24,531 nucleotides of DNA from a virus. The stretch spans positions 1 to 24,531 of IMG/VR virus record IMGVR_UViG_3300010233_000259. The stretch is one strand, 5' to 3'. Made by a program: the position numbers and the translations under genes. Numbering within the stretch: position 1 is the first letter of the stretch; every line of letters begins with the position of its first letter. This document shows positions 3,921 through 18,650 of this stretch, in pieces. Under the pieces are notes generated by a model that saw only the letters and a program-made list of their open reading frames with translations, was not told the DNA's origin and made no database searches.

Positions 3921-6199
3921 TATTGGACACCTACAATTTTACCGTCTTGACCCCTAATTACTGTTTTGGGTTGGTTTAACTTATTCATCATTTCGCCAAG
4001 CATCATAGCCATTTGGTTGCTGTTGTTGTTAATTGCATTGGCAACGGTTTCCATTGGGTTTTGCATAGCTTGTGCCATATCCTGCTCATTAGCGTAGGCC
4101 ATTGCACCGTCTGAATCGTCTGAACCAATCCTTGCAACTTCAATCTTTGCCCCGTTATTAATATGGGCTAGTAAAACTTGGGTATTGCGTTCAGTCATCA
4201 TCTTCATTTGGGCAACTTTAAGTTCCATTTCCCGATCCATAGCATTACGCTGTTCTTCTAGCTGGAATTTAAGCTGGTTCTCTTGGGCTTGATACTCTTG
4301 TTTAGCCTTTTCAAGTTCCATCTGCATCTGCATCTTTTGCTGTTCCATCTGCATTTGGGCTTGCATTTCAGCTTGTTTAGCCTGTGATTGGGCTTGCATC
4401 TTAGCCTGATCCATCTGCATTTCCATCTGCATCTTCTGCATTTCAGGGCTTGGTGGCTTAGGTTGACCCTCTGCCGCTTTAGCTTGCTGACGGAACTTAT
4501 CGGCTGTTTCGTCTATCAATCCTTCTAAGCCTTTACCAGCTTTAAACGCTGTTACGCCAAATTTAAGCATTTCAATCAGCATTGGAGTAAGTTCAGGTGT
4601 AGCTTGTGCGGCAGGAATAGCTTGCTGTAAGAATCCACCCATAGCGGATAAAAACTCCATCCTATCTTGCTTTTCTTGCTGTTCATCCTGATAAATCATG
4701 GAATCGCTAGTCACTTCAATACGGAAGTTCTTAGCTGGTTCGTCTTTCAGTAATGCAAGGGCTTGCGGTATAAGCTGTTGATCTTGTGGCGATAATTGCA
4801 TTGCACCGCTGATCTTAACGATAGTATCGTCAGTAAAGTGCTGGCAAATAATCTGTGCTTTGATCTGCAACAAGGCGGTAGCAAAGTTAACTACATCGTG
4901 TTGCATTGTCTTTAAACGCCCTGAAGCGTTGTTTGACTTAATGATCTGAGCACCAAGAGTTTCGTTAGGATCGGTCTGACCACGCTGAATATCAGCAATA
5001 CCCATGATCTCGTAAATCTGACCCTTAACCTGCTCCATAGCCTGATAAGCCATGTTCAAACCTTCAGCAATCGGCTTGATGTCTACAAGGTTAATAGCCC
5101 CTACAAGTCCACCCTTTTCACTAAACGCACCGTAGTTCTTAACTGGTAGCAGGGAGTTGTTCTCACCCTCTGTGAACAAACGGGCAAGGGATGGCTCAGA
5201 AGCGTCATATACGCCACGAACTTTCAATGCTTGGATGAATCCATCAATGCGATCTGCCAGCGTATCTAACTGTCTTGCTTGGTCTTGGTAAAGAACAAAG
5301 TCAGGTACAGGAATCAGGCTGTCTGTTGTCAGGGTTGAAAACATCGGCTTTGGGCAAGGCCAAAAGTTTTCAAGTTGTAGCGGATCAGCACGGGTATCAA
5401 GGATCTTACCTAATGACTTATTTAGCCAAATCACTTCACCTGTAGTTTTATCCCAAATCTCATAAACCACGGCTTCAGATGAACCTTCGCCCATCTTTTC
5501 ATTAAATGTTTTGGATGTTTCAGGCTTGGTATCTAGCGGAATTTTACCGCCTAGTTCCTCACCAAAGCGTTCAACTAGGGCAGGTCTACCCATATAAACC
5601 TTACGCCATACTGCGGTTACTTCTTCCCAAGTACGGGCAACGGTTAAGCCAAAGTCACGCCAATGCACATAATCTACTGGAGCACACTCGTACTCTATTC
5701 GTTCTTGGTTCTCACGGTGCATACCGCCTTCAGTTTCAGCTTCGTCAATATCTTCTGTAACTTGAAAGCCATCGTCAGGAGCACCTTCACCTTCACCGCC
5801 TTCTTGACCAACAATATGCGGTTCATACCGTACCCAAGATGTTCCACGACCACCAAGTAAACGGTCTTGAACGGCTTGTTTCATAGCACTAGCATAGTCA
5901 CCATAATGCTCAATTTCGTACTCTAATGCCCGTTCTAGCATCATTGAAGCCACTCGACCTATAGGATCGTTATCCCTAAATCTGCGTGAAACATCAGGTC
6001 TTGGCAACCTTGCAAATACAGCTGGGGTAATGGTCTGAACATTAGACCAAAGAATATTGAACTTGGCATTGGGATTGTTTCGACTGCGTTGGTCATCACG
6101 ATAACGCTTAACAATCTTATCGGCTCGCCCTTCCCATTCCTTAAATGTACGCTCGTACTGGGCAATGCAGTTGTACCAATCGGTGTATGTGTGTTCCAT
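3920..6199 (-). CDS. Portal protein (P22-like podovirus type)
   Basis: 759 residues. It would form the dodecameric ring at the capsid vertex through which DNA is packaged and ejected. The N-terminal half has features of podovirus portals: an early YRDDQRSRNNPNAKFNILWSN region, a clip/stem-like central part and the late segment QIYEIMGIADIQRGQTDPNE. The C-terminal 170 residues are Met/Gln-rich and charged (QMQMEMQ-type repeats), predicted to be a long coiled-coil barrel, followed by a conserved-looking tail TVIRGQDGKIVGVQ. AGGA precedes the ATG by eight bases. It lies two genes after the large terminase, the normal order in head-gene clusters. Identification is by family pattern and context. 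Confidence 0.9.
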   Translation of the reverse strand: MEHTYTDWYNCIAQYERTFKEWEGRADKIVKRYRDDQRSRNNPNAKFNILWSNVQTITPAVFARLPRPDVSRRFRDNDPIGRVASMMLERALEYEIEHYGDYASAMKQAVQDRLLGGRGTSWVRYEPHIVGQEGGEGEGAPDDGFQVTEDIDEAETEGGMHRENQERIEYECAPVDYVHWRDFGLTVARTWEEVTAVWRKVYMGRPALVERFGEELGGKIPLDTKPETSKTFNEKMGEGSSEAVVYEIWDKTTGEVIWLNKSLGKILDTRADPLQLENFWPCPKPMFSTLTTDSLIPVPDFVLYQDQARQLDTLADRIDGFIQALKVRGVYDASEPSLARLFTEGENNSLLPVKNYGAFSEKGGLVGAINLVDIKPIAEGLNMAYQAMEQVKGQIYEIMGIADIQRGQTDPNETLGAQIIKSNNASGRLKTMQHDVVNFATALLQIKAQIICQHFTDDTIVKISGAMQLSPQDQQLIPQALALLKDEPAKNFRIEVTSDSMIYQDEQQEKQDRMEFLSAMGGFLQQAIPAAQATPELTPMLIEMLKFGVTAFKAGKGLEGLIDETADKFRQQAKAAEGQPKPPSPEMQKMQMEMQMDQAKMQAQSQAKQAEMQAQMQMEQQKMQMQMELEKAKQEYQAQENQLKFQLEEQRNAMDREMELKVAQMKMMTERNTQVLLAHINNGAKIEVARIGSDDSDGAMAYANEQDMAQAMQNPMETVANAINNNSNQMAMMLGEMMNKLNQPKTVIRGQDGKIVGVQ

Positions 6200-8173: not shown

Positions 8174-9316
8174 TTATAACTCCGAAAGTACGGCTTTTTT
8201 GCCTGTAAAGTCTTCCCAACGCTTAACTATGACATCACAGTATTTAGGGTCAAGTTCCATAACAAATGCTTTACGACCAGTTTGCTCTGCACCAATTAAT
8301 GTTGATCCACTACCACCAAACAAATCAAGCACATTAAGCAATTTAATATGGTTTCCAAATGCTCTTACAGATAAAGCTACTGGCTTTTGAGTTGGGTGTA
8401 CATAATTGTGGTCTTTTTTTACTTCCCACAAATCAGACTCATTTTTAATAATTTCATCAATTTTGCCGTTAAATAAACAAAACTCATGTTGGTGTCTATA
8501 GCCGTTACCCATGCCAAATACATTTTTAGCCCAAACTATGCAAGTTTTGTAATCTAGCTTACCTTGCAATATGCCGTAAAACTTCCAATTGCACCAAATG
8601 TAATAAACCTTTGGGTCAATAGCTTTGATGGTGTTACATACTTCACCAATAAAGGCTTCAAAGTCTGACTCGGAAAGGTTATCGTTTTTAATTACATCGT
8701 GCTTACCGCTTCTACCATTAAATGCCACGTTGTATGGTGGGTCTGTAAATAGTAAATCTACAGTATTGCCATCCATTAACTTATCCACAGCATCAATACT
8801 TGTGCTATCACCGCACATAAGTCTATGATTTCCAAGGATATATATGTCGCCTAGCTTGGTTTTTGATTCTATTGGCGTGTCAGGTACGGCATCTTCATCG
8901 GTTAAGCCATCTGTGCCTTCTATTACATTTAGCAAGGCATCTAGTTCTTTATCGTCAAAGCCTGTAAGTGTTAGGTCAAAGCCTTCATCTTCTAGGTCTT
9001 TTAACTCAATTGTAAGCATGGCGTTATCCCACCCAGCATTTAGTGCCAGTTTATTGTCTGCAATAATGTAAGCCTTTTTTTGGCTATCAGTCATATCAGA
9101 GCAATCAATAGTGGGTACTTGGTCTAAGCCTAGCTTTTGGGCGGCCAATAATCTACCATGCCCAGCGATGATCCCTACTCCATCTACAAGAATTGGGTTG
9201 CGAAAGCCAAACTCTTTAATGCTGGCGGCAATCTGCCCTACTTGTTCAGGGCTATGTGTACGGCTGTTTTTGGCATAAGGAATCAGCTTGTTTACAGCAA
9301 CTTCTTGAATTTTCAT
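8174..9316 (-). CDS. ParB-like domain fused to beta-class DNA methyltransferase
   Basis: 380 residues. Residues 1-130 are a ParB/Srx-type domain with a GHGR motif at 52-55. From about 160 there is an adenine-N6 or cytosine-N4 methyltransferase: DPPY (motif IV) at 192-195, HPTQKP at 307-312, and the SAM-binding DLFGGSGST (motif I) at 331-339, followed by ELDPKYC. Motif IV preceding motif I marks the beta class. Such fusions are common in phages and modify phage DNA, often against host restriction; the target site cannot be read here. The ATG has no clear Shine-Dalgarno, and a short palindrome (AACCAAGTGGTT) sits just upstream. It ends one base before the small terminase gene. Confidence 0.92.
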   Translation of the reverse strand: MKIQEVAVNKLIPYAKNSRTHSPEQVGQIAASIKEFGFRNPILVDGVGIIAGHGRLLAAQKLGLDQVPTIDCSDMTDSQKKAYIIADNKLALNAGWDNAMLTIELKDLEDEGFDLTLTGFDDKELDALLNVIEGTDGLTDEDAVPDTPIESKTKLGDIYILGNHRLMCGDSTSIDAVDKLMDGNTVDLLFTDPPYNVAFNGRSGKHDVIKNDNLSESDFEAFIGEVCNTIKAIDPKVYYIWCNWKFYGILQGKLDYKTCIVWAKNVFGMGNGYRHQHEFCLFNGKIDEIIKNESDLWEVKKDHNYVHPTQKPVALSVRAFGNHIKLLNVLDLFGGSGSTLIGAEQTGRKAFVMELDPKYCDVIVKRWEDFTGKKAVLSEL

Positions 9317-9320
9317 ATTT

Positions 9321-9348
9321 AACCAAGTGGTTGATTAAGATAAGTTAA
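9321..9348 (-). promoter_or_regulatory. Palindrome and operator-like site before the methyltransferase gene
   Basis: AACCA-AG-TGGTT (9321-9332) is a perfect 5-bp inverted repeat 5 bases upstream of the methyltransferase ATG. Next to it, 9335-9348 (TTAAGATAAGTTAA) matches the early operator at 17710 in 12 of 14 positions, though one arm is imperfect. No convincing -35/-10 pair was found, so this is only a candidate control site. Confidence 0.3.
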
Positions 9349-13981: not shown

Positions 13982-14246
13982 CTAACTGTTTCCGTAGTGC
14001 CGCACATTCTTCTTCAAGCATTTGTGTATGGTTAGACTTTTCAGTATCGGCAAATTTAAGAATAGGCTTGTCTAATGCTTGTTTAGCCATTTCAATATAT
14101 CTATCGACTTCAAGTCTATCTTCCCCACCAATAGCCGCATTGCTGTGACCAACTGGTTTACCCATCGTGTCGTAATACACTTCACGAATTTCAAAGTAAT
14201 CCTCGTATGAATTACTCATGTTTACCAAGCGTAAGTTCCAAGTCAT
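13968..14246 (-). CDS. Conserved early phage protein, 92 residues
   Basis: Starts MTWNLRLVNMSN at 14246 in a TAATG overlap with the small membrane gene; a TTG twelve bases further upstream is less likely. The first half (EDYFEIREVYYDTMGKPVGH, SNAAIGGED) is a compact beta-rich pattern I recognise from early phage proteins of unknown function. The C-terminus (LEEECAALRKQLDDIQ) is a coiled coil, so it probably forms oligomers. Confidence 0.74.
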   Translation of the reverse strand: MTWNLRLVNMSNSYEDYFEIREVYYDTMGKPVGHSNAAIGGEDRLEVDRYIEMAKQALDKPILKFADTEKSNHTQMLEEECAALRKQLDDIQ

Positions 14247-14344
14247 TATTTCACCCAATAAAAGATTAAAGCCATAAAGAGCATTGCCACGCCTAATATG
14301 GCAAAGATTCCAACAGAAAAAATTAATATCAAATTTTCAATCAT
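14246..14344 (-). CDS. Single-span membrane peptide, 32 residues
   Basis: MIENLILIFSVGIFAILGVA followed by MLFMALIFYWVK: one long hydrophobic helix (about 5-29) with a short basic end. It is the first gene under the promoter with operator at 14351-14372. The predicted transcript start falls on or next to its ATG, so it may be translated from a leaderless message. The TAATG link to the next gene supports it. Function unknown. Confidence 0.68.
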   Translation of the reverse strand: MIENLILIFSVGIFAILGVAMLFMALIFYWVK

Positions 14345-14350
14345 GGTGAA

Positions 14351-14372
14351 AGTATATGTTAAGTGAACTTAA
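14351..14372 (-). promoter_or_regulatory. Early leftward promoter with operator TTAAG-N4-CTTAA
   Basis: Minus-strand -10 TATACT (14356-14351) lies seven bases from the ATG at 14344. Two bases upstream is the perfect inverted repeat TTAAG-N4-CTTAA at 14359-14372, in the spacer position also used by the operators at 15846 and 17710. The -35 is weak. Repression of block 3 early genes by the Cro-like protein is the simplest reading. Confidence 0.6.
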
Positions 14373-14399
14373 TGTTAGTAATTATTTTGTAGGTGTTTT

Positions 14400-14780
14400 C
14401 CCTATGTGTTGTTTTTTTGCCATAGGTTGCCCAAAGGTGATAAGCCTTCATCCATTCAGGATGTGTCCCGAACTAATGCTCCCTAAGGTAGTGTTCATTC
14501 GATTACAAGGTTGTCTATCACCATTGTCCTTGTATCTTGTGTAGTCGCCACTCAACGCTACGGGGCTTGCTGTCAGGTGTAAACCAGCCCATGTTCTATT
14601 CCACGCCACCCATTTAGGTGCTTAATATCGTTTGGAGTACGGCAGAAATAGAAAAACCCATCAGGGTTGCTCTAAGTTGAACCCACTTTAGAAAAGGTAT
14701 CCACAACTTTTCCAAAATGCTCAAAGCAACCCAAATGGGTCTTGGTGTGGATACTGGTACTAAGCAGGGTTCAATCTGCC
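14400..14780 (-). ncRNA. Candidate structured non-coding RNA, about 380 nt
   Basis: No good coding frame fills this gap. On the minus strand a 5' domain is closed by 14776-14780 with 14641-14645. Inside it are an 8-bp helix (14767-14774 with 14677-14684), a 9-bp helix (14746-14754 with 14697-14705), a 4-bp helix (14742-14745 with 14712-14715) and hairpins at 14729-14740, 14718-14728 and 14655-14668. The 3' domain has a hairpin at 14563-14590 and an H-type pseudoknot: 14528-14534 pairs with 14504-14510, crossing 14516-14522 with 14436-14442. Hairpins at 14449-14463 and 14401-14426 complete it. All listed pairings are perfect complements. An extended -10 promoter lies just upstream (14786-14794). 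Class unknown; large phage RNAs such as GOLLD or ROOL are possible comparisons, but no shared sequence is claimed. Either strand could fold; the flanking minus-strand genes and promoter favour minus. Confidence 0.6.
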
Positions 14781-14783
14781 CAC

Positions 14784-14803
14784 ACAGTATAACACTATTC
14801 TGT
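14784..14803 (-). promoter_or_regulatory. Extended -10 promoter and hairpin before the RNA gap
   Basis: Minus strand TGTTATACT (14794-14786) is an extended -10 (TGnTATACT) with no recognisable -35. It would start a transcript near 14779, exactly where the first RNA helix begins. The same bases sit in a hairpin (ACAG/CTGT and ATA/TAT, loop GTGT) that includes the stop codon of the PAPS-reductase-like gene. Confidence 0.45.
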
Positions 14804-15569
14804 ACACTCACATGGAGTATCAAACCCTACAAATGGAAGCGTCATTTGGGATTTGTGCATCAAAATTACTTCCGACCAAGCGTAATTTCTACCTAATCCT
14901 TTAATGCTGGTAAGTTCTGCTTGTTTTTCAATGTTTAATGCCCTTTGCAATAAATCAGGGTGTTTCTCATAAAGATCAACTATTTCTTTTGGGCGAGAAG
15001 ATGGGCAAAAAAAGCAAGCAGATTTACCAACATTAATAATTCCATGCTTTGCAATGATGTCCAAACAATTTTGCCTATCCCATTGCCACTCAATTAATGG
15101 ATATTCATAGTCATATTTAGGGTCATCACGCTTTGCCGCATTGTCAGCCCTATGTGATTCACCAGCATCATACCCAATGTATTTAACGCATTTTGAACCT
15201 GTTTTCCACCAATCAATAGCTGGTTGCCAATGATTGCAATATTTGTCTTGTGGGGCTATTTTGTGTTTTTGAGAGCATCTTTTGTAACCATAAGCAATAG
15301 ACGGCAAAGTGTTTGATCTTAGACATTCTTCTTCAAGGTTTTCTAGGCTTCCATCTTTTCTAACACGCTTTACTACGGTAATTTTAGGCAAACCTTTGCT
15401 TGCCAACCAATTACTAAAATTTTCAATGTGGGCGTAAGTTTCAGGGCGTTCACCACCAGTATCGGCAAAAAGAATTAAATCTATTGGTCTGTTAGCTTCG
15501 TATAACCCCAAAATCATAGCGGTGCTATCTACGCCCCCCCCCAAAAGCAACAATATGCGGCTTATTCAA
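14795..15569 (-). CDS. PAPS-reductase-like ATP pyrophosphatase, frame shifted at a G9 tract
   Basis: About 257 residues if one G is removed. The N-terminal nucleotide-binding loop should read MNKPHIVAFGGGVDSTA: the first part comes from a TTG start at 15569 and the second (VDSTAMILGLYEAN) from the other frame, joined across nine Gs (15534-15542, C on the plus strand). Eight Gs would make it continuous. Downstream are FADTGGERPETY, KRCSQKH and CFFCPSSRPKE, conserved in phage phosphoadenosine-phosphosulfate-reductase-like proteins of the N-type ATP-pyrophosphatase fold. Intact relatives may act in nucleotide or sulfur-linked modification; substrate unknown. A second TTG at 15553 gives a shorter in-frame product starting MLLLGGGVDST. 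The natural C-terminus (PCECTE) is present, so the only fault is the tract. Confidence 0.82.
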
Positions 15570-15792
15570 GTTCAGGCCAAATTAGCTTGTAATTGTTAGG
15601 AAACAAGTTTTTACGGGTAATTAGCCCATGCGATTCTTTTTCTAGGGTGGCGGCTAGAATCATCAGCTTATCGTAGGGAATATCCCCGTTTTGCCACATA
15701 GATACGGCTGGAACGGACACATTGACCAATTTTGATACCCGTGTTGGGCCACCTAAAAGACGAATCATTGCTGTTGCTGTAATTTTATCCAT
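15562..15792 (-). CDS. Cro/CI-type helix-turn-helix regulator
   Basis: 76 residues. The helix-turn-helix (about 13-40: GGPTRVSKLVNVSVPAVSMW) and the C-terminal ending LIWPELE resemble Cro/YdaS-type repressors of lambdoid phages. It lies next to two divergent promoter elements with TTAAG-N4-CTTAA operators and is read leftwards, so it likely controls both early operons and itself. No Shine-Dalgarno is visible, and the predicted start of its own transcript is at the ATG, as for lambda cI made from its maintenance promoter. Whether it acts as Cro or as the lysogeny repressor cannot be decided; no integrase is in view. Confidence 0.85.
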   Translation of the reverse strand: MDKITATAMIRLLGGPTRVSKLVNVSVPAVSMWQNGDIPYDKLMILAATLEKESHGLITRKNLFPNNYKLIWPELE

Positions 15793-15825
15793 AAGCTATC
15801 TTAACATTTTTACAACATTTTGCAA
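15791..15825 (-). promoter_or_regulatory. Leftward regulator promoter with operator
   Basis: Minus-strand TTGCAA (15825-15820), 16 bases, TAAGAT (15803-15798). The operator at 15791-15804 (minus TTAAG-ATAG-CTTAT, one mismatch from the symmetrical form) covers the -10 and the start codon, so bound regulator would block its own transcription. A predicted start near 15791 would give a leaderless message. Confidence 0.6.
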
Positions 15826-15833
15826 ATAAACTG

Positions 15834-15862
15834 TTGCTTTATGTTTTAAGTTGGCTTAATAT
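15834..15862 (+). promoter_or_regulatory. Rightward early promoter with operator in the spacer
   Basis: TTGCTT (15834-15839), 17 bases, TAATAT (15857-15862). The perfect inverted repeat TTAAG-TTGG-CTTAA at 15846-15859 fills the spacer and touches the -10. Just downstream, ACGG-N6-CCGT (15869-15882) could form a hairpin at the 5' end of the transcript. It drives the early operon from 15903. Confidence 0.65.
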
Positions 15863-15902
15863 CTAAATACGGTATATGCCGTGTTAATTAGGAGAAACTC
15901 TT

Positions 15903-16139
15903 ATGAGTGAGCAAGATCAAGACTTACACAGCTTCCAACAACATTTGGAACGCATCTTTAAAGACCTTGAAGAAGGTGTCTTTATTACAGAAGATGAAAT
16001 AGGTGACCTACGCTATGCGTGTGGCTTGCCATCACCAGTCCGCAACACCCAAGTCAACCCCGTATTGCGTGATGCCATCAATGACTTTGGCAAAGTATTT
16101 GGTATTCAATCTTTTCCTACAATTTGGAGTAAAAAATGA
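15903..16139 (+). CDS. First gene of the early operon, unknown function
   Basis: 78 residues, acidic at the N-terminus (SEQDQDLHSFQQHLERIFKD, LEEGVFITEDEIGD) and ending SFPTIWSKK. It has a strong Shine-Dalgarno (AGGAG) and is the first gene after the operator-controlled promoter, a place where phages often keep host-takeover or anti-defence genes. No domain is recognised. It overlaps the SSB-like gene by four bases (ATGA). Confidence 0.78.
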   Translation: MSEQDQDLHSFQQHLERIFKDLEEGVFITEDEIGDLRYACGLPSPVRNTQVNPVLRDAINDFGKVFGIQSFPTIWSKK

Positions 16140-16752: not shown

Positions 16753-17523
16753 ATGATAGTTAAAGAAAAAGAGGAAAAAAGTGGTCACTTCTATACTAAA
16801 GACGGCAGTCCAGCCTATACAGTCATTGGATCGTCTACGGGCAAAGAACGGGCAACAAATGTATCTGATGCACGAAAACTCGGTTTATTGCCCTCAGTTA
16901 CCACCATCATCAATGTCGCAAACAAAGGTGAAGGATTGCTTCGATGGATGCAAGAACAAGCTATCCTTGCCGCACTTACATTACCTCGCCTAGAAGGGGA
17001 AGAAGAAGGGGTTTGGCTATCTAGGGTAATGAAAGATAGCAAGGCTACTGGCAGGGAAGCGGCAGAGCGTGGTACGGCTATTCATAACATCATTGAAGGT
17101 TACTTTGAACAGATGTATTTGCCTGAAAAGCCAGCTTACCTTGATGAGATTGATAGGTTGCTAAAGGTAACCTTTGGGAACCAGCCTTGGCTAAGTGAAC
17201 GCTCATTTGGTCATCCCTTGGGATTTGGGGGAAAGTGCGACCTTATGGCCAAACCGATCAACGGTCAAGGTACGGGGTTCATAGTAGATTTTAAGACTAA
17301 GACTACCGATCTTGATAAAATTGATGTATGGTTCGAGCATGAACTACAGTTAGCGGCATATCGTGAAGGGCTAAACTTGCCCTTTGCTCGCTGTGCCATC
17401 GTATTTGTCAACGGCACGACTAATCAAGTAAAATTAATTGAAGTAGAAGAACCCCAGCTTCAAAAGGGCTGGGAGTGTTTTCAACATCTGTTACGCTTTT
17501 ATCAGGTAAAAAACAATCTTTAA
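16753..17523 (+). CDS. RecB-like PD-(D/E)xK exonuclease
   Basis: 256 residues. A RGTAIH segment (106-111) is the RecB/Cas4-family motif, followed by GFGGKCDLMAK (Asp163), IVDFKTK (Asp179, Lys181) and QLAAYREG (Gln199, Tyr203). These are the metal-binding and catalytic residues of a PD-(D/E)xK nuclease of the kind paired with phage ssDNA-binding or annealing proteins. With the SSB-like gene directly upstream it is probably part of the phage recombination or replication system. ATG two bases after the upstream stop, no obvious Shine-Dalgarno, so coupled translation is likely. Activity is inferred. Confidence 0.88.
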   Translation: MIVKEKEEKSGHFYTKDGSPAYTVIGSSTGKERATNVSDARKLGLLPSVTTIINVANKGEGLLRWMQEQAILAALTLPRLEGEEEGVWLSRVMKDSKATGREAAERGTAIHNIIEGYFEQMYLPEKPAYLDEIDRLLKVTFGNQPWLSERSFGHPLGFGGKCDLMAKPINGQGTGFIVDFKTKTTDLDKIDVWFEHELQLAAYREGLNLPFARCAIVFVNGTTNQVKLIEVEEPQLQKGWECFQHLLRFYQVKNNL

Positions 17524-17538
17524 TTCCTTCACGGGAAC

Positions 17539-17632
17539 GGGGGAAACGCAAGGAGTACCCCAACTTCTTTAGGGCGTTAAGCCGCCATAGTAGGATGCAG
17601 TAAGTTAGGGTTTTTGCGGCTTTCCACCTAAC
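17539..17632 (+). ncRNA. Candidate structured RNA element with pseudoknot
   Basis: The gap 17524-17771 has no gene. After a GGGG/CCCC hairpin (17540-17543 with 17558-17561), a 7-bp stem 17579-17585 (AAGCCGC) pairs with 17616-17622, and 17604-17609 (GTTAGG) pairs with 17627-17632. The two are interleaved, making an H-type pseudoknot. It lies downstream of the exonuclease gene on the same strand and could be a 3' end that resists nuclease, or a small RNA. The remaining bases up to 17701 are AT-rich, with an AGGG/CCCT hairpin near 17687-17699, before the next promoter. Confidence 0.45.
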
Positions 17633-17701
17633 GGCTAGTAACTGCCAAATACTGCCCTGTATCTTTTTTGCAACTAAGGGTATATCCCTAATAAATAATA
17701 C

Positions 17702-17730
17702 TTGCATTGTTAAGATAGCTTAACTAAACT
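17702..17730 (+). promoter_or_regulatory. Second rightward early promoter with operator
   Basis: TTGCAT (17702-17707), 17 bases, TAAACT (17725-17730). The perfect repeat TTAAG-ATAG-CTTAA at 17710-17723 lies in the spacer and continues symmetrically by one more base pair (GTTAAG/CTTAAC). A short hairpin (ACTC/GAGT, 17737-17750) would begin the transcript. It drives the genes from 17772, placing them under the same regulator as the main early operon. Confidence 0.6.
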
Positions 17731-17771
17731 GGTGTTACTCAATAACGAGTGAGATAGAAAAAGGAAAAAAA

Positions 17772-18128
17772 ATGAAAAAATTAAATTACAAAGCAGTATG
17801 TTTTTCATGCAAACAAGGTGAGCAAGACAATATTCCTGCTCAATGGTATGTGACTGGGCATGATGGCAATAAGCCTTTTAAAGGCTATGTTTGTGATGAC
17901 CATTACGAAATGCTTGCAACAGAAGATATGATTAAATCAGAGCAAAACATTGACTTAGATTCTATTGTTTCTTATCACACAGGTTTTAAGAGTTTTAATG
18001 ACATGGTGAAAAGCGTAAGTTATTGCTACACACCGACACTTAGAACCGATGTAGTGCCTGAACTTAAAATTGTTCGTCAAGCATTTAACGACAAAATGTC
18101 TGAACTTGGTTTAGAAAACAGAGCTTAA
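17772..18128 (+). CDS. Early protein with possible zinc site, unknown function
   Basis: 118 residues. The first third carries CFSC (10-13) and CDDH (41-44), a possible CxxC...CxxH zinc site (AVCFSCKQGEQDN, GYVCDDHYEML). The rest (IVSYHTGFKSFNDMVKSVSY) is mixed helix with no known motif. AAGGA lies seven bases before the ATG. It stands alone between an operator-controlled promoter and a strong terminator, so it is probably expressed strongly and briefly early in infection. A host-factor or anti-defence role is conceivable but unsupported. Confidence 0.75.
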   Translation: MKKLNYKAVCFSCKQGEQDNIPAQWYVTGHDGNKPFKGYVCDDHYEMLATEDMIKSEQNIDLDSIVSYHTGFKSFNDMVKSVSYCYTPTLRTDVVPELKIVRQAFNDKMSELGLENRA

Positions 18129-18134
18129 TTAACC

Positions 18135-18157
18135 AGCCCCTACGGGGGCTACTTTTT
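18135..18157 (+). terminator. Intrinsic terminator with UACG tetraloop
   Basis: AGCCCC (18135-18140), loop TACG, GGGGCT (18145-18150), then ACTTTTT. A six-pair stem capped by C(UACG)G, an especially stable UNCG tetraloop, followed by a U-run. It ends the transcript of the 17772 gene. Confidence 0.88.
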
Positions 18158-18174
18158 AAAAAAGTGAGATAGAA

Positions 18175-18402
18175 ATGAGCAATAACTATTTATTTTCAAT
18201 GTATGTTGGTGATACCTATTTAGATGTTTACGGGTATATAGATAAAGACGAACCTAGCGTTGGTCATGTAGGCGGCATAGAAATAGAAGATGTCTGCACC
18301 TGCGACACTAAAACAAGCGTATGGGAAATGATCCACGCACTCAACTTTGATAAATTTAACGAACAGGCTCAAATGGCTTGGTCAGAACGGAACGACAAAT
18401 GA
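18175..18402 (+). CDS. Small acidic early protein
   Basis: 75 residues, acidic overall (YIDKDEPSVGH, IEIEDVCTCDTKTSV), with a CTC pair at residues 41-43. The leader AGTGAGATAGAAA at 18163-18175 is an exact copy of the bases at 17748-17760 before the 17772 gene, so the two leaders share a short direct repeat. Acidic small early proteins often bind host enzymes, but no family is recognised. It overlaps the lipoprotein gene by four bases. Confidence 0.72.
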   Translation: MSNNYLFSMYVGDTYLDVYGYIDKDEPSVGHVGGIEIEDVCTCDTKTSVWEMIHALNFDKFNEQAQMAWSERNDK

Positions 18403-18650
18403 AATATTTACTACTACTTACCCCGTTTGTATTGGCCGCCTGTACTTCATTTGACCCACCCAATGTCAGCCTAGAAACTGATAAACAGGCTTTCCACATG
18501 AGCCGTGCTCAGGTCATACTGGGTATTACAGAATGTGAAGATGCTGGTACACGCCCCGTAGTCATTACAGCAAAGCGTAGGATCAATGGCACTATGAGTG
18601 ATGTACCCGTAGAAGTTACCTGCAATCCCCGTTATAAAATATTTCATTAG
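18399..18650 (+). CDS. Small lipoprotein
   Basis: 83 residues starting MKYLLLLTPFVLAACTSFDP: a short basic start, a hydrophobic signal helix and the lipobox LAAC, with lipidation at Cys15. The mature part (LETDKQAFHMSRAQVILGIT, TECEDAGTRP, VPVEVTC) matches a conserved small phage lipoprotein of unknown role. It starts in an ATGA overlap; an in-frame upstream ATG (18378) would put residues in front of the signal peptide and is less likely. A superinfection or spanin-like envelope role is possible; it is not nested with a larger partner as Rz1 would be. Confidence 0.84.
   Translation: MKYLLLLTPFVLAACTSFDPPNVSLETDKQAFHMSRAQVILGITECEDAGTRPVVITAKRRINGTMSDVPVEVTCNPRYKIFH

Follow-up and report, generated by a model that had tools for sequence, protein, structure and literature searches.

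The locus considered here raises the question of what kind of genetic unit is formed by two small genes, encoding proteins of 118 and 75 residues, that sit between a PD-(D/E)XK exonuclease gene and a lipoprotein-like gene (18399-18650; no family match in Pfam or PHROGs despite that reading). The source virus record is 24,979 bases long, and its positions 1-24,531 are the stretch analyzed, hereafter the window. The initial annotation described the genes as an isolated, separately controlled early pair and suggested anti-defense or host takeover as their function. Both reading frames are as it described them, the first product carrying the motifs CFSC and CDDH and the second being acidic (14 D+E against 5 K+R, pI 4.24).

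Table 1. Features of the two-gene locus and of its candidate regulatory partners, in window coordinates.
Feature	Position	Strand	Remarks
Operator of leftward promoter	14359-14372	-	No hairpin leader in window
Cro-like repressor gene	15562-15792	-	P22_Cro 1.4e-5, phrog_35 4.6e-8
Operator copy (one mismatch) over repressor start	15791-15804	.	
Operator of rightward early promoter	15846-15859	+	
Hairpin ACGGU-AUAU-GCCGU at predicted +1 of rightward early transcript	15869-15882	+	
PD-(D/E)XK exonuclease, upstream early operon	16753-17523	+	PDDEXK_1 2.1e-5, phrog_298 2.7e-16
Upstream motif AGGGTATATCCCT, 33 bases before operator	17677-17689	+	
-35 element TTGCAT	17702-17707	+	Sequence
Operator TGTTAAGATAGCTTAAC, whole 17-base -35/-10 spacer	17708-17724	+	Kept in relatives
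-10 element TAAACT	17725-17730	+	Sequence
Leader hairpin ACUC-AAUAAC-GAGU	17737-17750	+	Starts at predicted +1 (17737)
Single-stranded tag GAGATAGA	17751-17758	+	Conserved; GTGAGATAGA is 17749-17758
Shine-Dalgarno AAGGA of 118-residue gene	17761-17765	+	
118-residue gene	17772-18128	+	ORF; putative exchangeable first cassette gene
Motifs of 118-residue protein	CxxC (C10, C13), CxxH (C41, H44)		ORF translation
3' hairpin AGCCCC-UACG-GGGGCU of first cassette	18135-18150	+	
Intercistronic leader hairpin ACUUUUUAAAAAAGU	18151-18165	+	Folds; counterpart of promoter leader hairpin
GTGAGATAGA tag directly before 75-residue ATG	18164-18173	+	
75-residue gene	18175-18402	+	ORF; putative second cassette gene

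The 118-residue gene had been proposed to have its own operator promoter, and the upstream sequence agrees: TTGCAT and TAAACT are separated by 17 bases, the whole of which is the operator TGTTAAGATAGCTTAAC, and a 15-mer of this operator is repeated in inverted orientation at 15792-15806, beside the Cro-like gene. Separate control by a repressor holds up as a reading, and the assignment to the early class, made from the operator and the neighboring genes, stands as well. A generic promoter scan of the window did not list this promoter (17702-17730). Among relatives, the spacer is 17 bases long in 49 of the 62 spacer matches having a -35 element with at least 4/6 agreement, and a TANNNT -10 element ends exactly six bases before the leader hairpin in 98 of 110 distinct contexts (the 12 exceptions include four coding false hits), so that transcripts would begin with the hairpin. 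Of 110 distinct operator promoters, 77 have an AGGG..CCT-type motif like that upstream of the operator, 69 of these with it at 30-35 bases, compared to 0.7% in shuffled sequences; the motif is possibly an activator or UP-type site. A similar motif is seen at about 14391-14403, before the leftward operator promoter.

The candidate repressor gene lies 1.9 kb upstream of this promoter; its P22_Cro score (25.2 bits) is below the curated cut-off of 30.2, and its match to the PHROG repressor family has an E-value of 4.6e-8. Homologs were found in 138 loci, including repeats of the same contig, which represent 79 distinct upstream regions. Where the repressor is at least 70% identical to that of the window a TTAAG-type operator is located near its start in 67 of 72 distinct regions, with two operators in 47, and where it is less than 70% identical this is so in two of seven. 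Among the more divergent examples, in L022 (repressor 53% identical) the sequence TTTAGNNNNCTAAA is present at both the early and the cassette promoters, such that repressor and operators have changed together, L185 (60%) has TAAAG..CTTTA and a near match, and L036 (49%) has no shared palindrome. In L099, whose repressor is L022-like, the early promoter has the L022 operator (TTTAG-type) and the cassette promoter has the TTAAG-type; this mismatch could be a genuine exception or could reflect recent import, and it suggests that the cassette promoter itself is exchangeable. Taking these patterns together, we consider the pairing of repressor and operators to be likely.

The other early promoter has an AC..GT hairpin with different stems in 74 of the 79 distinct regions, although a few of the 74 lie at a start codon and may be false, and a -10 element stands six bases before the hairpin in 63 of the 74 leaders. 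In the window the rightward early leader (15869-15906) folds at -8.7 kcal/mol. The repressor resembles Cro-like early repressors in being a small helix-turn-helix protein divergent from the early operon with predicted operators at its own gene, and differs from them in that the operator set is also present at a separate cassette promoter 1.9 kb away and that no integrase is found in any of 28 phage records. Given that neither an integrase nor a resolvase was found in these possibly fragmentary records, the repressor may act in shutting off early expression rather than in lysogeny.

Several other features of this region are recorded here as separate observations. A PAPS-reductase-like gene (14795-15553, minus strand; phrog_424, 1.1e-35) adjoins the repressor gene. 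The leftward promoter (-10 TATACT) would give an mRNA starting at the ATG itself, a predicted leaderless message for a membrane-like peptide of about 32 residues (14246-14344, minus strand). An operator-like sequence, TTAAGATAAGTTAA (one mismatch, 9335-9348), is situated just before a minus-strand gene of 380 residues (8174-9316), whose motifs resemble those of a ParB-N/DNA methyltransferase fusion.

The repetition of a 13-base leader before the second gene, noted at the outset, is exact: AGTGAGATAGAAA occurs twice in the 24,531 bases, at 17748-17760 and 18163-18175, the last A of the second copy being the first base of the 75-residue ATG. At up to three mismatches there are 10 occurrences in the window compared to a mean of 8.6, which is chance level. 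The pattern GTGARATAGA has 61 matches in the 28 phage records compared to two for the reversed control pattern, though every record but the window's own came into the set by way of loci collected for these elements or for the two genes. Across 119 loci, deduplicated and including the window (1.08 Mb), there are 197 occurrences of RGTGARATAGA compared to three expected from base composition, an excess that is partly built in because many of these loci were gathered using the patterns, and 187 of the 197 sites have an ATG within 28 bases. Five of the 187 were dropped as coding false hits in which the start codon reads ATGAGTGAAATAGA, leaving 182.

These sites fall into two principal contexts. 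There are 108 behind operator promoters and 71 in intercistronic positions behind a GCCCC..GGGG hairpin, with three in neither. The promoter sites comprise 60 in a right slot (within 900 bases after the exonuclease gene, same strand), to which the pair of the window belongs, 33 in a leftward slot (on the repressor's strand), four at the rightward early promoter and 11 unplaced, with more than one class present in 13 loci, and the junctions comprise 28 in the right slot, 35 in the left and eight unplaced. The pattern scans of IMG/VR had recovered the promoter-leader in 53 stretches and the intercistronic junction in 60, and the frequency of the elements is inflated because loci were gathered partly by patterns that contain them. 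The proteins encoded at the sites form 47 clusters, of which 45 are usable, corresponding to about 45 unrelated small-gene families of uncultured-phage contigs; cluster 39 is false and cluster 46 a spurious frame, and cluster 20 opens the rightward early operon and does not belong to a slot.

The order of these genes varies extensively, with 60 arrangement strings (eight of them incomplete or with an unrecognized promoter). The family of the 75-residue protein stands directly behind the promoter in 11 contigs, and also in L021 and L022 with a diverged operator, and elsewhere it is preceded by nine different first families, or 11 at 18 junctions if single-linkage members are counted (the downstream proteins of L111, L116, L117 and L129 join it only in this way, with direct E-values of 0.009-0.07). 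Another family is preceded by 10 different ones at 21 sites, nine first families stand before at least two second families, and families 2, 3, 17, 23 and 27 come first in both slots. The flanks are conserved: in L011-L016 the exonuclease is 93-94% and the 75-residue gene 93-96% identical to those of the window, and between them lie 304-908 bases. L090 has a chain of four genes with three junctions. In a protein-based set, gathered independently of the promoter and leader patterns (the best 80 of 95 stretches encoding relatives), the 75-residue gene lacks both elements in 18 of 63 distinct contexts. The description of the pair as an isolated module must therefore be given up, the pair being one of the 60 arrangement strings, and it is very probable from these comparisons that it consists of two cassettes of an early slot that related phages refill.

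What the two proteins do is less readily addressed. The 118-residue family is represented at five IMG/VR loci, and a profile search for further relatives returned the same five contigs only; C10, C13, C41 and H44 are invariant in all five aligned sequences and likely constitute a zinc site. Synonymous changes dominate in both genes (dN/dS of 0.11-0.18 in four comparisons for the 118-residue gene, that with L006 on the first 80 codons only, and 0-0.16 in nine for the 75-residue gene), so that both are very probably real and functional, and we regard both as being under purifying selection. In L003 the 118-residue relative stands behind a different promoter and is followed by a member of the 75-residue family (47% identity, E 5e-17), in L004 and L005 it precedes another small gene with the operator present and no hairpin, and in L006 it is cut off; L003 and L006 are without this operator or leader. 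The gene and its 3' hairpin thus occur under different control.

The statement that no family is recognized holds up, with Pfam and PHROGs giving only weak, chance-level rows and GenBank phages no convincing match for either protein; homology to a housekeeping phage gene was looked for and not found. A PDB sequence search gave nothing significant, zinc-finger and other chains appearing at E 0.12 and worse, and no relatives of the 75-residue family were confirmed in GTDB genomes. Structure prediction with fold search, the check originally recommended, was productive for only one of the two proteins. The 118-residue model is too poor to use (pLDDT 47.8). The 75-residue protein is confidently modeled as beta-beta-beta-alpha (AlphaFold2 pLDDT 90.1) and is nearest to PDB 3PES, a protein of Pseudomonas phage YuA named as uncharacterized in its entry (Z 5.7, rmsd 3.0 over 71 residues, 14% identity), where a Z below 8 may reflect only a common arrangement. 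Other VIA-align rows for this fold (Z 2-4) were taken as noise. Foldseek found nothing at E of 0.001 or below in PDB or BFVD, and the best BFVD rows are small uncharacterized phage proteins.

A host-directed accessory role for the two proteins is the most likely reading, and the high turnover of the slot fits accessory genes, such as those for anti-defense or host takeover. For the 118-residue protein we think it probable that it binds zinc and acts on the host as an accessory early protein, the chances of the host-directed role taken by itself being about even. A slot family in L007 (about 5600-5858) ends in CGRC..WYAVTC, which by eye is like the CFSC..QWYVTG start of the 118-residue protein, and the two possibly share a zinc-binding half. 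Anti-defense is one form of such a role, and the specific proposal that the 118-residue protein, or both proteins, blocks a host defense has the small size, presumed early expression, repressor control and high turnover of these genes in its favor, together with the lack of convincing GenBank phage matches or of a confirmed GTDB relative of the 75-residue family. LPD29 is a polyvalent-protein domain linked to conflict, and one slot protein, of 187 residues, contains it (L109:3840-4403, Pfam 3e-21). The searches, including Pfam and PHROGs, however, gave no match to a characterized anti-defense family, the 118-residue model is poor, and AcrF10 aligns with the 75-residue fold only at noise level (Z 2.2, among unrelated rows). 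The slot can also carry a replication-type gene, the last gene of the L090 chain (L090:300-1429) resembling a phage replication initiation protein. PADLOC, whose models describe defense rather than anti-defense, matched none of 45 slot proteins. We therefore rate anti-defense as such a rather unlikely account of the pair, and retain the broader host-directed reading.

The features that unite these otherwise unrelated genes are in the leader, which consists of an AC..GU-closed hairpin followed by GARAUAGA. Individual promoter leaders fold weakly: the 4-bp hairpin of the window has a predicted energy of -3.0 kcal/mol (five of 200 shuffles as good), which is modest for a 5' protector, and the L007 leader does not stand out from its shuffles, 48 of 200 being as good. 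No match was found in an Rfam scan of 17400-18500, and the fold of 17580-17700 shows no excess structure (z 0.35). A stem of at least 4 bp is present in 75 of 76 distinct elements (80 minus four coding false hits) compared to 21-26% in shuffles. Twenty sites were left out of the hairpin set: two with stems of less than 4 bp, and 18 in neither context, of which 13 are chance-like and five real-looking (L021, L022, L035 with its repeat L049, and L197). The 4-bp filter cost one distinct hairpin sequence (L090 and L110).

A MAFFT alignment of 59 hairpins put the stems out of register and was replaced by sets of equal length containing 16 and 28 of the 60 distinct hairpin sequences, with 16 in neither. 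Covariation is 0.407 in the smaller set compared to 0.094 in shuffles and 0.535 in the larger compared to 0.240; none of 500 shuffles reaches either value, and both exceed all slid versions, in a test that sequence relatedness inflates and on sets whose 100% pairing is built in, only sequences already forming at least 4 bp being included. In the 16-sequence set position 4 is CG, UA or GC and position 5 is CG, GC or UA, and in the 28-sequence set positions 3 and 4 are altered on both sides in 21 cells. Two of the five covariation measures are not above shuffles in either set, these being the pairs with both sides altered (191 and 358 of 500 shuffles as high) and the further pair types (224 and 486 of 500). 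Even so, we think it highly probable, on these comparative grounds, that the hairpin and GARAUAGA together are an RNA element.

The junction between the two genes brings together this element and the GC-rich UACG hairpin. The latter was described as a strong terminator, and its stability is not in question (-12.9 kcal/mol, one of 200 shuffles as good). Its strength as a terminator is doubtful. It passes a lenient terminator scan, and the T-run that follows has five T in eight, starting two bases late, with the tail occupied by the next hairpin; 16 of 31 distinct intercistronic copies have five to six T in eight and 15 have only four. Partial termination is possible, and a strong terminator is unsupported.

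The two contexts also differ in how translation would begin. A Shine-Dalgarno sequence follows GARATAGA in 65 of 66 distinct promoter contexts, whereas in intercistronic contexts the ATG is one to two bases past the tag with no Shine-Dalgarno after it in 37 of 38, the lone exception, L021, being really a promoter. In the intercistronic tag no stretch other than GUGA could pair with the 16S tail. Median pairing energies are -8.5 kcal/mol for GGUGA (eight contexts) and -4.9 for AGUGA (18), compared to -7.9 in 51 promoter contexts and -4.7 in 22 other genes of the window, so that the AGUGA pairing is only moderate and at the level of those other genes. Since the GU of GUGA is enclosed in the hairpin and these are the only Shine-Dalgarno-like bases, initiation at the second gene is probably coupled to translation of the first. 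The junction pattern has no matches in GTDB genomes; phages of Streptococcus, Providencia and Pelagibacter gave short DNA matches (E 0.2-0.7) that were discarded as chance. In L062 (4214-4236) and L122 the ATG immediately follows the tag of a promoter-type leader, ACTTTAACTGAAAGTGAGATAGAAATG, without a Shine-Dalgarno, as in the intercistronic form.

Phage cassettes with terminators are common, and the arrangement could be an ordinary operon with a leaky intrinsic terminator after the first gene and a duplicated ribosome-binding region inherited by descent. The copies with at least five T after the hairpin are as this predicts, as is L004, in which the same GC hairpin follows the 118-residue gene, the leader element is missing and the next bases are TTTTCTT. 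The copies with only four T are not, and the second hairpin has compensatory changes, which descent alone would not keep; moreover, the tag is maintained not only between genes, where there is no separate Shine-Dalgarno, but also behind promoters, where there is one. This account is accordingly improbable. We give still less credence to an antitermination signal of the put or nut kind, in which nascent leader RNA would modify RNA polymerase for readthrough of the UACG hairpins: the leader does lie at the predicted +1 of operator promoters and again just after each GC hairpin, but its length of about 22 bases is less than that of HK022 put, its order of hairpin then tag is unlike the boxA-boxB of nut, and copies are also positioned after, not only before, the supposed terminators. 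An integron-like system, with the intercistronic element as a structure-recognized site for a site-specific recombinase, would explain why a single promoter heads a stack of promoterless genes and why each has a folded site whose structure is better kept than its stem sequence, but is very improbable given that tyrosine recombinases (PF00589) and serine resolvases (PF00239) are found in none of the 28 records including the window's (which may be fragments) compared to 14/14 and 10/14 control genomes, respectively, and that the integron core GTTRRRY is absent at the junction.

We favor instead a slot of exchangeable cassettes in which the unit is a small gene, a GCCCC(UACG)GGGGC hairpin and a hairpin-GAGATAGA leader, stacked between the promoter leader and a downstream gene. 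One type of promoter, with its operator in the spacer, stands at the right slot and, in many relatives, at the leftward slot, and the Cro-like repressor is predicted to bind the operator TTAAGNNNNCTTAA and to shut the slots off after early infection. At the mRNA start the leader would form a 5'-terminal hairpin, expected to shield that end from degradation; in the intercistronic position it would open the next reading frame by supplying its only Shine-Dalgarno-like bases (GUGA), and the UACG hairpin would guard or weakly terminate the 3' end of the upstream gene. New cassettes would most likely enter by homologous recombination at the common junctions. The combination of slot architecture, RNA element and repressor control, as read from the genomes, is reasonably probable as a whole, and the part assigned to the leader in stability and translation is tentative. 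We are doubtful of a bolder version, in which AC..GU hairpin plus GUGARAUAGA would be a new phage RNA element acting as a universal start module, beginning early mRNAs and internal genes without a canonical Shine-Dalgarno, read by a specific factor, and allowing any small gene to be plugged in with matched timing and dosage.

In PeSL cassettes, each border of a shuffled gene has both an early promoter and a stem-loop. Those of the T4-like phages, as cited in PMC4503421 (Arbiol 2010; Comeau 2014), are small conserved regulatory pieces at gene borders associated with early-gene shuffling, and the phages described here also have conserved regulatory pieces at the borders of early genes shuffled between relatives, with the nine first families before the 75-residue family and the 60 arrangement strings. 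They differ in that only the first border of a slot has a promoter, none of the 71 intercistronic junctions having an operator promoter within 75 bases upstream, and in that the junction has two hairpins and a ribosome-binding-like tag, with one repressed promoter per slot. In cluster K mycobacteriophages, PMC3203893 and PMC12699233 describe the SAS, a 13-base sequence a few bases before the starts of many different non-structural genes, and the ESAS, an inverted repeat of 17-bp repeats often just upstream of it. The SAS consensus, GGGATAGGAGCCC, with no more than two deviations and 3-7 bp before the start, contains a Shine-Dalgarno, and RNA hairpins at the ESAS have little support according to the authors of PMC3203893. 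The resemblance is in a start-associated repeat common to unrelated genes, here in 45 clusters kept of 47; however, the leader AGTGAGATAGAAA is unrelated to GGGATAGGAGCCC and falls outside that consensus, and in contrast to the ESAS the stems here co-vary. Stem-loops at mRNA 5' ends can act as stabilizers (Emory 1992, Bouvet 1992, as entries in the reference list of PMC3997798), and to that extent are alike in having a hairpin at the first transcribed base, which here is predicted from the position of the -10 element only; the stems here are 4-5 bp with a fixed GARAUAGA tag and are reused between genes. PeSL and SAS/ESAS are the closest precedents, and the present system belongs to neither, differing in sequence, structure and layout. 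A limited search of the open-licence literature, which cannot show absence, found no description of the hairpin-tag element.

The junction provides a searchable handle with which about 45 orphan early-gene families, few with a named match, have been catalogued by the control that they share rather than by homology, and such catalogues allow systematic screening for host-takeover and counter-defense genes. If the RNA element acts as we infer, it would provide a small natural module by which genes lacking a Shine-Dalgarno of their own could be inserted into an expressed operon, and would offer a test of how phages may gain genes without breaking expression.
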